Assembly: GCA_030377895.1 (NCBI GenBank)
Contig: JAUCGB010000009.1
Coordinates: forward strand, 1-64,000
Direction of reading: 5' to 3'
Length of the DNA: 64,000 nucleotides
Source: Anaerolineales bacterium HSG24
GTDB taxonomy: Bacteria; Chloroflexota; Anaerolineae; 4572-78; J111
The position numbers and the translations under genes are program-made. Positions 5,638-64,000 of this stretch are shown here, one piece after another. Under the pieces are notes generated by a model. That model was given only the letters and a program-made list of their open reading frames with translations. It did no database searches and was not told the origin of the DNA. How positions within the stretch are numbered: the first letter of the stretch is position 1; every line of letters starts with the position of its first letter.

Positions 5638-5974
5638 AATAGTAGGTAGTCAACCTGAATACAGACATACAAGTGTATAAAACTTACTGGGAGCGCAGGC
5701 ATCCTGCACGTAGCGCGGACGTTGGTAGTAGTGCAAAGGAGTGCAAGGCTTGCCTTGCATGCAAAGCAAGCTTTGCACTCCGGATTTCCCCATCTGTACC
5801 ACTACCCGAAACGCGCAACTTATTTAATTCCGACACCTAAAGGTTTTAGAAACCTTTAGGGTCTGTCCGTCCGAGTGAAAAACTTTACCTGAAAAACTGT
5901 AGCCTGCGGCAGGCTGGAAGCTTGCTCCCATTTTTGGCCTATCTTATACCATTGTACCTATATATTGAGGATGT
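5638..5974. repeat. Intergenic repeat cluster with A element
   Basis: 337 bases without a gene. It contains GGGAGCGCAGGC-type sequence near 5689 (also near 30482), an A-family palindrome at 5738-5781 (GGAGTGCAAGGCTTGCC...CTTTGCACTCC) and a second palindrome at 5832-5861 (CCTAAAGG...CCTTTAGG). No RNA gene was recognised. Confidence 0.65.
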
Positions 5975-9096: not shown

Positions 9097-9198
9097 GGCT
9101 ATCAACGTAAGCCGAGACATGTAGCACATGCTTCAGCCTGTGCCGCACAGTCTAAAGACTGTGTTACGATATTATCTGTCGCACGTTAAGTTGGTAGC
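9097..9198 (+). mobile_element. MITE-like element, family B
   Basis: An element of about 102 bp bounded by GGCTATCAAC and GTTGGTAGC inverted ends. It contains internal dyads (CACAGTCTaaAGACTGTG). Near-identical copies are at 47665, 50203 and 54688 (inverted), with an interrupted copy at 11860 and an amplified one at 32531. Confidence 0.7.
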
Positions 9199-9419
9199 AT
9201 CATCTTTAGATTGTGCCTAAAGTTTGGGCAAAACTTTTGCTCAGGTATACCATCATTATTTATTGATATAAACTAACAGGTTGATTTTAACGATTTTCAC
9301 TGGCAGAGGCAAATATTCGGTACTCTTGCATAGGCAGCCCCCTTGTTCCCAAATTAGTTTTGGCTAACTTTTCTGTCGGGTACTGAGCCTATGTAAAACT
9401 TTTGATCGTTATACTTGTT

Positions 9420-11850: not shown

Positions 11851-11859
11851 TTTTCTAAC

Positions 11860-12038
11860 GTAAGCCGAGACATGTAGCACATGCCACAGCCTAAAGGCTG
11901 TGCTACAGTCTTTCAGATAATGGTTTTCAATTCAAGACCAACCTTCCCGCAAGTTCTAAACTTGCGGGAAGGTAACGGCTGAAAATGTTTATCTGAACAT
12001 CTATACGATATTATCTGTCGCATGTTAAGTTGATAGCC
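11860..12038 (+). mobile_element. B element interrupted by an E element
   Basis: The left part (ACGTAAGCCGAGACATGTAG) and the right part (GATATTATCTGTCGCATG... to TTGATAGCC) match a B element. Between them, at 11907-12006, sits a complete 100-bp E element, so E inserted into an existing B copy. The B middle here is a shorter variant (CACAGCCTAAAGGCTGTG). Confidence 0.7.
11907..12006 (+). mobile_element. 100-bp E element, copy 1
   Basis: It begins AGTCTTTCAGATAATGG and ends TTATCTGAACATCTATAC, with imperfect inverted ends and an inner hairpin CCTTCCCGCAAGTTctaAACTTGCGGGAAGG. TAC is present on both sides, consistent with a 3-bp target duplication or with insertion beside TAC. The length is the same 100 bp as in copies 2 and 3. 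Confidence 0.75.
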
Positions 12039-30602: not shown

Positions 30603-30820
30603 GGTAGTCCTGCACAAGTAGCGATGGGGAAATCCGGAGTGCAAGGCTTGCCTTGCAGGCAAAGCAAGCTTTGCACTCCGGATCACATCTGCACCACTAC
30701 CGGAATTAGGAATGAGTCCTAAAAATAAGTTGCGCGTTTGGCAATCGTAGGGGCGAGGCAAGGCGGCGCGGTGCCGGTTTAAAATCAGAACTCCAATCCG
30801 CCTTGCCTCGCCCTGAATCT
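30603..30820. repeat. A element followed by K element
   Basis: 30603-30701 is an A-family copy (GGTAGTCCTGCACAAGTAG... ending CACCACTACC). 30708-30820 is a K-family copy (AGGAATGAGTCC, GCGAGGCAAGGCGG facing CCGCCTTGCCTCGCC). The second K copy is at 39678. Confidence 0.65.
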
Positions 30821-31408: not shown

Positions 31409-31562
31409 GTAGTAGGCACTTTAGCACTTTAGTGCCTCAGAGGGCGATAAATCGCCTACTACAGTCTTTCAGATAATGGTTTTCAATTCAAGACCAACCT
31501 TCCCGCAAGTTTAGAACTTGCGGGAAGGTAACGGCTGAAAATGTTTATCTGAACATCTATAC
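31409..31562 (+). mobile_element. Palindromic element with E element copy 2 (31463-31562)
   Basis: 31409-31462 is a small palindrome with GTAGTAGGC and GCCTACTAC ends. The 100-bp E element follows directly after TACTAC and ends CTATAC. It is nearly identical to copies at 11907 and 43479, with a two-base change in the hairpin loop (TTTAGAA). Confidence 0.7.
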
Positions 31563-31668
31563 AAACGTTAAGGCCAAAACCAAACAGCACATGGCAAAGC
31601 ACTCCGGCGATTCGCTCAATCTAAAATCGGCAATCGCCAATCAAAAATCAAAAGGAGGTGATTCCATA

Positions 31669-31962
31669 ATGGGCACCGAACCCGCCAGAGAGTTATTGAA
31701 AAAGTGGAAACTGCGTAACCTGACTGTCGAGATGGCCACGGGGCATACCCTGCAACATCTGGTGATGCTGTACGAGGCCGATAAACAGGCCAACATCCAA
31801 TGCTTGCAAATTATCAGTGCGTTGGGTGAGATTGAAACCAGCCTGCGTAGTTTACGGCATGATGTGGATGCGTTGATAGCTCACACGAGCATGCCACTGC
31901 CGCCACCGCCAAAACCAAAACCAAAACGGGGCAGGCCGAGAAAAAATGCAAGCAAGCTGTAA
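31669..31962 (+). CDS. Small helical protein with AT-hook-like tail
   Basis: 97 residues; ATG at 31669 sits 8 nt after AAAGGAGGTG, so an upstream extension is rejected. Residues 1-75 are largely helical (ELLKKWKLRNLTVEMATGH, ALGEIETSLRSLRHDVDALI) and probably form a coiled coil. The tail is Pro/Lys-rich and contains KRGRPRK, the core of an AT-hook minor-groove motif. The next gene (32040) is a clear paralogue without the tail. The function is unknown; a DNA-associated role is suggested only by the tail and by the tandem DNA array 570 bp downstream. Confidence 0.75.
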   Translation: MGTEPARELLKKWKLRNLTVEMATGHTLQHLVMLYEADKQANIQCLQIISALGEIETSLRSLRHDVDALIAHTSMPLPPPPKPKPKRGRPRKNASKL

Positions 31963-32039: not shown

Positions 32040-32282
32040 ATGGATACAATTCCAGCCAAAAAGCTATTAGACGAGTGGGAACAAGAGCAATTGACCGTCG
32101 ATGTAGCAACAAGGCATACTTTGCAACATCTAGAGTCGTTGCACAAAACCGATAAGCAAGCTAACATCCAACGCCAGCAAATCATCACTGCGTTGGGTGA
32201 GATTCAAACCAGCTTGCGTAGTTTACGGCATGATGTGGATGCGTTGATAGCTCACACGAGCATGCCGCTTCGTGAGGCGTAA
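32040..32282 (+). CDS. Small helical protein, paralogue without AT-hook tail
   Basis: 80 residues, preceded by ACAGGAGGTAATTCTC. It aligns along its length with the gene at 31669: KKLLDEWEQEQLTVDVATRH, HTLQHLESLHKTDKQANIQ and a shared stretch ending SLRSLRHDVDALIAHTSMPL. It ends where the first protein begins its Pro/Lys tail. The pair, 77 nt apart, looks like a tandem duplication in one operon. A heterodimer with the AT-hook protein is possible. No known family recognised. Confidence 0.75.
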   Translation: MDTIPAKKLLDEWEQEQLTVDVATRHTLQHLESLHKTDKQANIQRQQIITALGEIQTSLRSLRHDVDALIAHTSMPLREA

Positions 32283-32530: not shown

Positions 32531-33314
32531 GGCTATCAGCGCAAACCGAGACATGTAGCACATGCTTCAGCCTGTGCCGCACACAGTCTAAAGACTGTAC
32601 TACGATATTATCTGTCACGACATGTAGCACATGCTTCAGCCTGTGCCGCACACAGTCTAAAGACTGTACTACGATATTATCTGTCGCGACATGTAGCACA
32701 TGCTTCAGCCTGTGCCACACACAGTCTAAAGACTGTACTACGATATTATCTGTCACGACATGTAGCACATGCTTCAGCCTGTGCCGCACAGTCTAAAGAC
32801 TGTACTACGATATTATCTGTCGAGACATGTAGCACATGCTTCAGCCTGTGCCGCACAGTCTAAAGACTGTACTACGATATTATCTGTCGCGACATGTAGC
32901 ACATGCTTCAGCCTGTGCCACACACAGTCTAAAGACTGTACTACGATATTATCTGTCACGACATGTAGCACATGCTTCAGCCTGTGCCGCACAGTCTAAA
33001 GACTGTACTACGATATTATCTGTCGAGACATGTAGCACATGCTTCAGCCTGTGCCGCACAGTCTAAAGACTGTACTACGATATTATCTGTCGCGACATGT
33101 AGCACATGCTTCAGCCTGTGCCGCACACAGTCTAAAGACTGTACTACGATATTATCTGTCGAGACATGTAGCACATGCTTCAGCCTGTGCCGCACAGTCT
33201 AAAGACTGTACTACGATATTATCTGTCGAGACATGTAGCACATGCTTCAGCCTGTGCCGCACAGTCTAAAGACTGTACTACGATATTATCCTGTCGCACG
33301 TTAAGTTGATAGCC
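32531..33314 (+). repeat. Tandem array of 11 B-element units (67/69 bp)
   Basis: The B element is amplified internally. Eleven copies of the unit starting ACATGTAGCACATGCTTCAG lie at 32551, 32620, 32689, 32758, 32825, 32892, 32961, 33028, 33095, 33164 and 33231. Periods are 69 or 67 bp according to whether CACACAG or CACAG is present. The array is framed by single B ends (GGCTATCAGC at 32531; TTGATAGCC ending 33314). There are no spacers, so it is not CRISPR. Confidence 0.9.
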
Positions 33315-33353: not shown

Positions 33354-33653
33354 TCAAGCCACTTGAGCAATATTCACAACATCCGCCATCGCTGATGCTA
33401 TAACCTCATCTTTTACCCCATATCTTTTCAGGCTCTCCACCAACAACATGACTTCGGGATTTTCCTCCAATTGCGCCAAATCAGCGCGCAACCCTTGCCC
33501 AATATAAGCCCGAATTAAAGGCTGATAGCCGGAAAAGCCGAGTTTGGGAGCCACATACTTCAAATCTTTTACCACATCTTCGGGTATCCGCAGGCTTATC
33601 ATGGTCATGGGACGCTCTTTTCGTAACCGTTCTCTCAACTCACTGTTCTTCAT
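33354..33653 (-). CDS. Ribbon-helix-helix DNA-binding protein
   Basis: 99 residues. MTMISLRIPEDVVKDLKYVA (about 16-35) gives the beta-strand plus first helix of a CopG/Arc-type fold, and the next helix follows after GFSGYQPLIRAYIGQGLR. Such proteins bind DNA as dimers, often as antitoxins or plasmid-type repressors. A further helical C-terminal part (EVMLLVESLKRYGVKDEV) may mediate oligomerisation or bind a partner. No toxin gene is adjacent. ATG at 33653 has AGAGAGGAT. It is transcribed toward the B array. Confidence 0.75.
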   Translation of the reverse strand: MKNSELRERLRKERPMTMISLRIPEDVVKDLKYVAPKLGFSGYQPLIRAYIGQGLRADLAQLEENPEVMLLVESLKRYGVKDEVIASAMADVVNIAQVA

Positions 33654-41052: not shown

Positions 41053-41100
41053 ACGGAGTGCAAAGCTCGCTTTGCCTGCAAGGCAAGCCTTGCACTCCGG
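41053..41100. repeat. A element upstream of gcvT
   Basis: CGGAGTGCAAAGCTCGC... to AAGCCTTGCACTCCGG, an A-family palindrome. Flanking GTAAACGA and TCGTTTAC at 41031 and 41147 form an outer inverted repeat. The gap to 41372 holds only this and a terminator. Confidence 0.65.
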
Positions 41101-41209
41101 ATTCTGCCATCACTAAAAGCTGTGCTACATCCGTTATGATTTTATCGTTTACAATTGTATAAAAGATATTCCTCCATCGTGGAGTATTTGATTATTGTGC
41201 TTAATAATG

Positions 41210-43405: not shown

Positions 43406-43593
43406 GGTAGTGATCCGGAGTGCAAAGCTTGCTTTGCATGCAAGGCAAGCCTTGCACTCCGGATTTCCCCATCACTACAGTCTTTCAGATAATGGTTTTC
43501 AATTCAAGACCAACCTTCCCGCAAGTTCTAAACTTGCGGGAAGGTAACGGCTGAAAATGTTTATCTGAACATCTATACTTGTGCAGGACTACC
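43406..43593. mobile_element. A element interrupted by E element copy 3 (43479-43578)
   Basis: The A element runs GGTAGTGATCCGGAG... to CCATCACTAC (43478) and resumes TTGTGCAGGACTACC (43579-43593). Comparison with uninterrupted copies (30603, 63928), which read through CACAAGTAG without the insert, shows that the 100-bp E element was added after TAC. E here is nearly identical to copies 1 and 2. Confidence 0.8.
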
Positions 43594-47664: not shown

Positions 47665-47767
47665 GGCTATCAACGTAAGCCGAGACATGTAGCACATGCT
47701 TCAGCCTGTGCCGCACAGTCTAAAGACTGTGTTACGATATTATCTGTCGCACGTTAAGTTGATAGCC
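47665..47767 (+). mobile_element. B element, 103 bp
   Basis: A complete copy from GGCTATCAACGTAAGCC to GTTAAGTTGATAGCC with perfect 10-bp terminal inverted repeats. Confidence 0.8.
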
Positions 47768-50202: not shown

Positions 50203-50305
50203 GGCTATCAACGTAAGCCGAGACATGTAGCACATGCTTTAGCCTGTGCCGCACAGTCTAAAGACTGTGTTACGATATTATCTGTCGCACGTTAAGTTGG
50301 TAGCC
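50203..50305 (+). mobile_element. B element, 103 bp
   Basis: From GGCTATCAACGTAAGCC to GTTGGTAGCC, a full copy close to the one at 47665, next to the terminator. Confidence 0.8.
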
Positions 50306-50315
50306 CTTCTGATGC

Positions 50316-51884
50316 TTATTGCCAAGCGACCAACGGCCCTTGGACATTGTAGTTCCCAGCGGCTAAACTCAAATCAAAGATGTTGACTGTGCCATCATCG
50401 TTCAAATCGGCCAATTCGTTAGTCCCTTGATATTTGCTGGCAACGTAGGCTAAATCGAGAATGTTGATAATATCATCGTTGTTGATGTCTCCGGCCAAAA
50501 GGATGATGTGTCCCACATTTGTAGCAGTCACGTCACCACCAGCTATTTGAGCGGCAGTCCCAACTTCGGCTCGTGCGCTTATGTAACCGGCTTTTTTGAT
50601 CGTGACAGGTTCACCACCAGTCACGCTAAAGCTACCATCAGCCCCAGTAACCATCTCATCTCCGGTTGAGCCGACAACGGTCACGCCACTGTAGTCATTT
50701 TGACCTTCTAAGGCCACTGAGCCAGAAACGGTTGAGGCACAATCCACGCTAACGGTGACATTTCCGTTGCTCAACTCAGCCTCAATGGGGTTTCCATTCG
50801 GGTCGGATAAGGCAAAGGTGTTGACGCGAACTTGGCCCGTCCCTTGAGATTGCGGAACCCAGTCGATGGTGATGATGTTGGCTTTGCTACTAACTTGATC
50901 GCCCAATAGAGTAGCGGCAAAGTTAATCGTACCACTGCTAGTATCCACCTCATTTTCCACCACAAAACCGCTGGCAAAGGCCCCGTTGTTGTTGACTTGC
51001 ACCCCAGCTTTATCGAGGTCTGCATCGGCTACTTGAACAACAGAGGTATCATACATGATTTCCAACTCAAGCCCGACCAAATCAGTAATGCCGTCAACAG
51101 TTAAGACCATGCTCTCTTCGGCTGTACAACTATCGATGCTCAAATCGGCTGGCTCAAAGGCTAATGATGGGTCAGTCGGTTCAATCGTTGGTTGGGTGAC
51201 TGGGGTATTCGTTGGTTGGGTGACTGGAGTATTCGTTGGTTGGGTGACTGGAGTATTCGTTGGTTGGGTGACTGGAGTATTCGTTGGTTGGGTGACTGGG
51301 GTATTCGTCGGTTGGGTGACTGGAGTATTCGTTGGTTGGGTGACTGGAGTATTCGTCGGTTGGGTGACTGGAGTATTCGTCGGTTGGGTGACTGGAGTAT
51401 TCGTTGGTTGGGTGACTGGAGTATTCGTCGGCTCACCAGTCGGGTCAGTGCTAATATCGCCCACCAAAACGGCTTCACTGGTCGTACAAGCACTAAAATG
51501 TGCGCCGGTAGGGTCGCTAGCCGTCACATCAAAAATATATTGCCCGTTAACATCGGTGTAAGTATAAACTCCATCATACTCGCCTACTCGGTCTACGAGG
51601 CCAAAGCCTTCGGCCGTGCTGGCTTGTACGACATCTTTGGTGACATCGGCTCGCACCACGGCTCCGCCTAGCGGTGTACCTTGACTATCTGCCACTCGGA
51701 CGGTAATGAGAATCGCCTCATTAAGTTCGTACTGAGTCTGGTCAAACATAATGCTGGTGATTTCGCATGCAGGTAACGAACTATCCTGCTGGGCGAATGA
51801 TGTTTGGACAGGTGTTAACACGACTAACACGGTTAAAACCGCCACTAAGTTGTACAAAAACCATTTTTGTTTCAGGTGTTGCAT
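50316..51884 (-). CDS. Secreted protein with Ig-like, cohesin-like and dockerin domains
   Basis: 522 residues. A signal peptide (LVAVLTVLVVLTPVQTSFAQ) leads to an Ig-like domain (about 35-145) and ten TNTPVTQP repeats (about 158-238). A cohesin-like beta-sandwich (about 245-385, VGLELEIMYDTSVVQVADAD, ANIITIDWVP), a small carboxypeptidase-regulatory-like fold and a C-terminal type I dockerin follow, with two calcium loops (GDINNDDIINILDLAYVA and DLNDDGTVNIFDLSLAAG). Carrying cohesin and dockerin folds together suggests self-assembly or scaffolding at the cell surface. ATG at 51884 has AAGGAGG. Confidence 0.88.
   Translation of the reverse strand: MQHLKQKWFLYNLVAVLTVLVVLTPVQTSFAQQDSSLPACEITSIMFDQTQYELNEAILITVRVADSQGTPLGGAVVRADVTKDVVQASTAEGFGLVDRVGEYDGVYTYTDVNGQYIFDVTASDPTGAHFSACTTSEAVLVGDISTDPTGEPTNTPVTQPTNTPVTQPTNTPVTQPTNTPVTQPTNTPVTQPTNTPVTQPTNTPVTQPTNTPVTQPTNTPVTQPTNTPVTQPTIEPTDPSLAFEPADLSIDSCTAEESMVLTVDGITDLVGLELEIMYDTSVVQVADADLDKAGVQVNNNGAFASGFVVENEVDTSSGTINFAATLLGDQVSSKANIITIDWVPQSQGTGQVRVNTFALSDPNGNPIEAELSNGNVTVSVDCASTVSGSVALEGQNDYSGVTVVGSTGDEMVTGADGSFSVTGGEPVTIKKAGYISARAEVGTAAQIAGGDVTATNVGHIILLAGDINNDDIINILDLAYVASKYQGTNELADLNDDGTVNIFDLSLAAGNYNVQGPLVAWQ
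51186..51431. repeat. 24-bp coding tandem repeat, 10 units
   Basis: Ten copies of a 24-bp unit (plus strand GTTGGTTGGGTGACTGGAG + TATTC) encode TNTPVTQP. Units differ only at a few third positions, indicating recent expansion. Copy change would stay in frame. Confidence 0.9.
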
Positions 51885-54687: not shown

Positions 54688-54790
54688 GGCTACCAACTTA
54701 ACGTGCGACAGATAATATCGTAACACAGTCTTTAGACTGTGCGGCACAGGCTGAAGCATGTGCTACATGTCTCGGCTTACGTTGATAGCC
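54688..54790 (-). mobile_element. B element, inverted copy
   Basis: GGCTACCAACTTAACG to CTTACGTTGATAGCC, the reverse orientation of the copies at 47665 and 50203; 103 bp. Confidence 0.8.
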
Positions 54791-63392: not shown

Positions 63393-64000
63393 TTATCTCG
63401 TCAAATAAGTACTGGTGATGCCGAAACACTATCTGGTTATCCGTGAATTACAATATAAATATCAGGGATTTATCGCTTGTCAACATGACGAGAGCTGTAA
63501 GGTATTTTTAGCGATAAATTTTGCGGTCTTGAGCAAAAAGTCGCTGCACGTATCCGTGAAGTTGAATGTCAAAACTTAACCCTCAGATTGGCAACTCTGC
63601 CTGCTGTAGGTATAATTTAGGCTTATTAAAAGTCAAAAGTTTATCGTTTTTCAAAAAGGTAAAAGATATGAATTAATGATGAAGGCATGCTTAGTACCCG
63701 ACAGTCTGAACTAATTAACACAGAGTTTCACAGAGGAACACAGAGTTTCACAGAGAAAAAGCAAATTATTTTTCCTTTGTATTACTCTGTGAAACTCTGT
63801 GTTCCTCTGTGAAACTCTGTGTTCCTGTTTTAGCCTTCCCTAAACCACTTTGTCGGGTAACAAGGAAGGGCATGAAGAAAATTTGTCTAAACTTATGTAA
63901 TCCTGTTGAAAAACAGTAAACTTATGAGGTAGCCCTGCACAAGTAGTGATGGGGAAATCCGGAGTGCAAGGCTTGCCTTGCATGCAAAGCAAGCTTTGCA
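63393..64000. repeat. Terminal gap with C and A elements
   Basis: 63695-63859 is a C element (TACCCGACAGTCTG to TTTGTCGGGTA). 63928-64000 is an A element (GGTAGCCCTGCACAAGTAGTG) cut by the window end. A 53-codon frame at 63418-63579 has no ribosome site. No gene is supported. Confidence 0.6.

Follow-up and report, generated by a model that had tools for sequence, protein, structure and literature searches.

How does the interior of a short mobile element come to be repeated eleven times while its ends stay single? This question is raised by a 784-bp element at positions 32531-33314 of the window, i.e., the whole 64,000-nucleotide stretch of Anaerolineales bacterium HSG24 that was analysed. 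The outer arms of the element are each present once, and they enclose 11 units of either 67 or 69 bp in tandem. Our preferred answer, to which we give a probability of about 0.75, is that it is a copy of a MITE whose interior was amplified by hairpin-assisted slippage or template switching, followed by unequal exchange.

Anatomy of the array and of its parent element

An earlier note on this DNA had described an eleven-fold middle with 67- or 69-bp periods between intact outer ends, which is confirmed both by TRF (32550-33297, 11.0 copies of 67 bp, score 1334, 95% matches) and by direct parsing, which gives start-to-start spacings of 69, 69, 69, 67, 67, 69, 67, 67, 69 and 67 bp. The left outer arm with its terminal inverted repeat (TIR) lies at 32531-32549 on the forward strand, begins with GGCTATCAGCGCAAACCGA and matches the left-end pattern of the family; the right outer arm with its TIR, at 33296-33314 on the same strand, ends with GCACGTTAAGTTGATAGCC. 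Both arms are intact, and unit 11 continues into the right one with one additional C. Each unit of the forward-strand array comprises an inverted pair of hairpins, with GTAG at both feet, and the inner right arm. In unit 1, hairpin A (a GTAG foot, then CACATGCTTCAGCCTGTG) was placed at 32555-32576 on the forward strand by parsing and a folding program, and hairpin B (GTAG-TACAGTCTTTAGACTGT) at 32583-32603 on the reverse strand by its pattern; both recur in every unit. Allowing up to three mismatches, the hairpin-B pattern matches the window 15 times, against 0.00 expected from shuffles. The dyads already noticed in the units are present as well: GTCTaaAGAC is perfect, and ACATGTAGCACATG coincides in part with the foot of CACAtGCttcaGCcTGTG, which makes the better hairpin.

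Units differ in the presence or absence of a CA dinucleotide (making them 69 or 67 bp long), in the G or A of CC(G/A)CACA, and in a junction dinucleotide that is AC, GC or GA. The array also holds an exact 269-bp repeat at an offset of 203 bp (copy 1 at 32651-32919, copy 2 at 32854-33122, both on the forward strand), in which a three-unit block is doubled, units 3-5 being the same as units 6-8. Together with the order of the unit variants, this repeat indicates that the array grew at least partly by multi-unit blocks. A GTACTACG substitution is common to all 11 units and private to them genome-wide (11/11 matches). The host element, on the other hand, looks old, because its left arm has three differences from the MITE consensus and it has no target duplication. 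In these relative terms (a private substitution in every unit, a long exact repeat and an older-looking host), and only in these, the expansion can be called recent, as had been suggested.

The parent element is a MITE: it is non-autonomous, carries no transposase gene and occurs in many copies. It has TIRs at both ends (GGCTATCAAC(G/T)TAA), and its left end occurs 184 times in the genome (85 forward, 99 reverse; the window array and array 2, described below, contribute to this count), against 0 for a reversed-pattern control. The genome assembly is 4.04 Mb in 206 contigs and 75% complete. Copies were compared in a set of 102 with both ends, 95 of them at most 140 bp long (the short copies) and seven longer, including two arrays. 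This set was drawn from the best BLAST hits, from TIR variants and from the first 100 of the 184 left ends listed, after removal or merging of copies whose flank was shorter than 12 bases or whose 12-base flanks were identical; ten left ends had no right end within 900 bp. Most members are 103 bp (59/102) or 105 bp (22/102) long. A target duplication of exactly 8 bp flanks 47 of the 95 sampled short copies, against 0.06 expected from swapped flanks, and a 9-bp direct repeat flanks 9/95. Nearly all copies with sufficient context (36/37) sit outside open frames of at least 150 codons. What had been called a MITE-like element is thus upgraded by its TIRs, its 8-bp target duplications and its 184 left ends, and the claim that it was amplified internally is supported.

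Within the window, single copies lie on the forward strand at 9097-9199, 47665-47767 and 50203-50305, the last two with 8-bp target duplications (CAAAACGC and CTTCTGAT, respectively), and on the reverse strand at 54688-54790, flanked by a 9-bp direct repeat. A broken forward-strand copy at about 11857-12038 carries a 104-bp repeat of a different family in place of its core. That repeat, which has the hairpin CTTCCCGCAAGTTCTAAACTTGCGGGAAG, occurs at 11903-12006 (inside the broken copy), 31459-31562 and 43475-43578. A further dispersed palindromic repeat, of the CCGGAGTGCAAGGCTTGCCTTGCATGCAAAGCAAGCTTTGCACTCCGG type, is found at 30618-30686, 5738-5799, 41054-41115, 43410-43478 and 63943-64000.

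Searches for an autonomous partner gave 0 matches to IS1595 (PF12762), ISL3 (PF01610) and DDE_Tnp_1 (PF01609) in this 75% complete genome; IS1595 and ISL3 were picked because of the 8-bp target duplications that these families make. TIRs with a different interior occur at 23 places, and none of those inspected is a transposon: they are MITE length variants, other small palindromic cores or stray matches. Same-orientation pairs of MITEs within about 170 bp occur on contigs C4, C31, C49, C53, C89 (twice), C139 and C172. The C31 and C53 pairs are tandem duplications that include the flank, and other pairs (e.g., C139) arose from two insertions, each with its own target duplication. Such close pairs indicate DNA prone to local duplication. 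Three of these loci (C89:32292-32536, C89:47543-47786 and C172:16201-16444) are paralogous and have similar flanks; in each, the two MITEs point the same way and are separated by 142 bp.

The core of the MITE consists of the stem-loop GTAG-CACAtGCttcaGCcTGTG and, on the opposite strand, the stem-loop GTAG-TACAGTCTTTAGACTGT, with the GTAG feet outside. In anatomy, this interior resembles a GTAG REP dimer (BIME) of the HH type. Among the sampled short copies, the feet are GTAG/GTAG in 34/95 and GTAG/GTAA in 50/95. Pairs that resemble the core but lack these TIRs are present in the relative from the same genus (L051) and in a genome from a different family (L046). This is consistent with a REP-like dimer around which TIRs form a frame. 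As DNA, a single MITE folds at -21.2 kcal/mol (z -4.57), and an isolated 67-69 bp array unit folds weakly better than its shuffles (z -1.05 to -2.05); as RNA, the energies for the two strands of a unit are -19.8 and -23.7 kcal/mol (z -2.7 and -2.6). Duplications of 8 bp flank the 103-bp unit as a whole, contrary to REP/BIME mobilisation, which proceeds without target duplication; Y1 enzymes are not known to make any. At L073:1501-1708, the same TIR (GGCTATCAACTTAA) stands beside a different GTAG-type dimer core (GTAGTAGGCGATTCATCGCC ... GGCACTAAAGTGCCTACTAC), and additional copies of that core adjoin MITEs elsewhere (L059, L076). It may be that TIR frames and REP cores are interchangeable modules.

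A single clear RAYT gene (NF047646, 144.1 bits, cut-off 80) lies in the genome at C9:18592-19588 (L034:1037-2033). It is flanked on both sides by many GTAG hairpins (GTAGGTCACGTTTGTAACGTGAC / GTAGGTGACGCTTGTAGCGTCAC), some of them reiterated in tandem at about 50 bp. This locus is a REPtron of another REP family: its GTAG repeat differs from that of the MITE, and no RAYT carrying the MITE's hairpin was found in the genome (75% complete).

Further arrays and their breakpoints

The element had been thought single elsewhere, and this is true of the window and not of the genome, where two further copies are internally amplified. They came to light when a two-unit query hit contig C121 of the same genome. 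In array 2 (C121:6343-6673), five 57-bp units lie within intact arms, and its 331 bp as a whole are flanked by a perfect 8-bp target duplication, AAACTGAA. Array 3 begins about 195 bp beyond it, at about C121:6868, without its TIR, and runs to the contig end at 7048. The end of C121 and the start of C104 share an exact 46-bp overlap containing a variant, TTTAGACTG, unique to these two ends, which suggests that array 3 continues at the start of C104; joined in this way, it would have at least five 57-bp units. Arrays 2 and 3 are adjacent, so they may not be independent events. Both adjoin GAF-type genes, which are unrelated to the genes beside the window array.

With a gapped junction pattern, the genome yields 10 junctions from the window array and 8 from arrays 2 and 3, 18 in all, whereas the 11 other family genomes searched yield none. 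The 67/69-bp junction, with up to two mismatches, has 10 matches, all within the window array. When 61 genomes were searched as relatives, matches were confined to the genome itself, to one congeneric genome (best identity of the longest match 78%) and to one of another family (core only), and the two-unit query matched 5 of 396 genomes of the class, including its own. In the genome_contigs collection, the MITE left end occurs in one record, Anaerolineales bacterium HSG25, and the array junction in 0, HSG24 itself being possibly absent from that collection; in viral_contigs, the left end has 0 matches. The gapped pattern matches 68 viral_contigs stretches, none of which holds either core hairpin, so the pattern is too loose and these matches are attributed to chance.

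Among imperfect direct repeats that bracket the hairpins, the best consists of TGTaGCAC at MITE position 24 and TGTcGCAC at position 81. Its offset of 57 ranks first among 50 direct-repeat offsets (score 6, next 4) and equals the period of arrays 2 and 3. The junctions of these arrays are hybrids of the two repeats, with CTGTA, CTGTC, ATGTA or CTGCC before GCACAT, and exchange within an imperfect repeat should give hybrids at several places. In array 2, even the right arm bears the left-repeat version (TGTAGCACAT). In the window array, CG at 17-18 is joined to CG at 84-85, an offset of 67 with 2 bp of microhomology, and this CG lies at a stem foot (the GACA/TGTC pair in the DNA fold). The GA junction (CGAGACATG) is what a simple CG/CG exchange would give, and AC and GC are one or two substitutions off. 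However, a 2-bp seed is short and offset 67 is absent from the best 12 of the 50 offsets, so the proposed slippage accounts less well for the first step of the window array than for that of the 57-bp ones.

The 69-bp form of the window unit matches a 105-bp subfamily (CCGCACA...TGCTAC, 8/95 sampled short copies), arrays 2 and 3 match another (GCGGCA...TGCTAC, 7/95), and the commonest (CCGCA...TGTTAC, 49/95) yielded no array, where shares in this copy set are not an unbiased census. With so few events, the pairing of subfamily and array means little.

Proposed slippage and its alternatives

In the mechanism we propose, the hairpin pair would become single-stranded during replication, and the polymerase would slip or switch template between short repeats flanking the hairpins, giving a first tandem duplication. 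The repeats used would be TGTaGCAC/TGTcGCAC for the 57-bp arrays and the CG dinucleotide at the stem base for the 67/69-bp array. The duplicate would then expand, homogenised by unequal exchange or further slippage. The structure, the breakpoints, the hybrid junctions and the block doubling are observed; the replication step is what we infer. Because the arms remain single, a TIR-recognising transposase did not make the internal copies. The amplification history is read from one assembled genome, in which single copies stand beside doublets and three amplified copies, the last with two kinds of breakpoint, so the sequence lets one follow the birth of a tandem array from a mobile element. The 57-bp junctions place the slip at an 8-bp imperfect repeat, which amounts to a testable rule.

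Could an enzyme have done this instead? A RAYT (TnpA_REP) is a Y1 transposase that would cut single-stranded DNA at the GTAG feet and join units head to tail, so that a MITE containing a GTAG dimer would be spread by one enzyme and amplified internally by another. We consider this unlikely. The genome does have one clear RAYT with its own reiterated GTAG hairpins beside the gene, the 57-bp unit spans GTAG foot to GTAG foot, and large GTAG clusters are reported to consist of dimers reiterated in tandem with flanking DNA (PMC3733652). However, the hairpins at the RAYT gene (GTAGGTCACGTTTGTAACGTGAC) are unlike those of the arrays, the 67/69-bp junction lies inside the arm, away from the GTAG foot, and hybrid junctions at multiple points of an imperfect repeat fit slippage better. 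All three arrays come from GTAG/GTAG-footed copies, but a restriction to such copies is not significant: both feet are present in 34/95 short copies, and three arrays, representing perhaps two events, are within chance (34/95 squared is about 0.13). A composite selfish element, in which the TIRs would be moved by a DDE transposase (hence the 8-bp duplications) and a captured BIME cut and re-joined by a RAYT, seems quite unlikely. If that reading were true, array growth would be an enzymatic RAYT product on a captured BIME, not passive slippage.

Selection for the array as a multi-site binding element, or as an RNA-structural element that regulates its convergent neighbours, for instance with the RHH protein as its binder, or terminates or stabilises their transcripts, is very unlikely in our view. 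The near-identity of the units could be taken as a sign of selection, but it follows from recent expansion. One neighbour (33354-33653) has a weak CopG/RHH match, and RNA from either strand of a unit folds with the energies given above; against this, the other arrays lie beside unrelated GAF-type genes, no junction occurs in the 11 other genomes of the family, and there is no terminator-like site within the array, the nearest on the upstream gene's side preceding it. The binding array suggested in the earlier note is not supported either, as arrays stand at unrelated loci, their units differ and the junction is restricted as described. Structural DNA, also suggested there, applies solely in that the unit forms hairpins, and a replication-slippage product is the best supported of the three roles it offered. 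It is highly improbable that the array or its unit number was made by the assembler: the units differ in an ordered way (AC/GC/GA junctions, 67/69 bp) and all share a private substitution, and two more arrays have another period, one of them complete with its target duplication. On the other side, the 269-bp exact repeat exceeds usual k-mers, the comparable C121/C104 array broke the assembly at its 46-bp overlap, and the unit count could be off, especially by multiples of three. The true number of units is therefore uncertain, given a fragmented assembly and a long exact repeat.

Two other readings were rejected. The units run head to tail with no unique spacers, so this is not a CRISPR array; and their lengths shift the frame (67 is not a multiple of three), so open frames across the array are mechanical and not coding.

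Known systems and neighbouring genes

Both minisatellites borne by bacterial MITEs and the tandem reiteration of REP dimers have been published before, so the array is a clear case but not an unprecedented one, and it leaves current ideas unchanged. We found no report of this MITE family or its host in the open-licence PMC literature. Among the closest precedents, BrickBuilt and MITE464/PgRS of Porphyromonas gingivalis (PMC4596501) are intergenic, non-coding MITEs with an interior tandem array of 23-nt or 41-nt units; as there, the window element has TIRs, a tandem interior between single outer arms, and a copy number that varies by locus. In BrickBuilt, however, the tandem repeat belongs to the element as defined, with 1 to 22.8 repeats of a short unit per copy, whereas here three amplified copies stand against 184 family left ends, the unamplified ancestor persists in many copies, and the unit of 57-69 bp contains the whole hairpin pair. 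Target duplications are irregular in BrickBuilt and 8 bp here.

GTAG REP dimers, the other close precedent (PMC3733652), are inverted stem-loops with GTAG outside (HH) that are reiterated in tandem with flanking DNA, and dimers inside longer palindromes are reported there as well (e.g., GTAG-15 of Anabaena variabilis). The window element shares the two inverted stem-loops, the outside GTAG and the reiteration with flanking DNA. It differs in that its dimer is bounded by TIRs and flanked by an 8-bp target duplication, one foot is GTAA in half of the copies, and the genome (75% complete) yielded no RAYT with this hairpin. In eukaryotes, MITE-derived satellites likewise originate as a tandem repeat inside a transposable element, which is attributed to slippage or unequal exchange between short repeats (PMC6947457), but the present case is bacterial, has only 5 to 11 units, and its array has not spread elsewhere.

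The array lies between two convergent small genes, a location that would tolerate such DNA. Upstream is an 80-aa ORF (32040-32282, forward strand) with no Pfam or NCBIfam match, and downstream a 99-aa ORF (33354-33653, reverse strand) with a sub-threshold match to CopG antitoxins (ribbon-helix-helix type). Rfam gives 0 matches in the window, and no terminator-like sites were found inside the array. Transcripts of the array would be chains of hairpins, and these predicted hairpins may affect the transcripts. There is no evidence of selection or of a binding-array function, and the array is probably neutral.

The upstream ORF and the one before it (31591-31962) are adjacent small paralogues, 84% identical in DNA over 178 nt; the latter has an AT-hook-like tail (KRGRPRK) and no Pfam or NCBIfam match. 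A start resembling theirs (MSTESIKKLLNKWQVE) lies beside the MITE pair of L006. The window also contains a tandem repeat of another kind, 10 x 24 bp at 51185-51428, within a reverse-strand ORF (50316-51884), where it forms a QPTNTPVT linker repeat in a secreted-looking protein.
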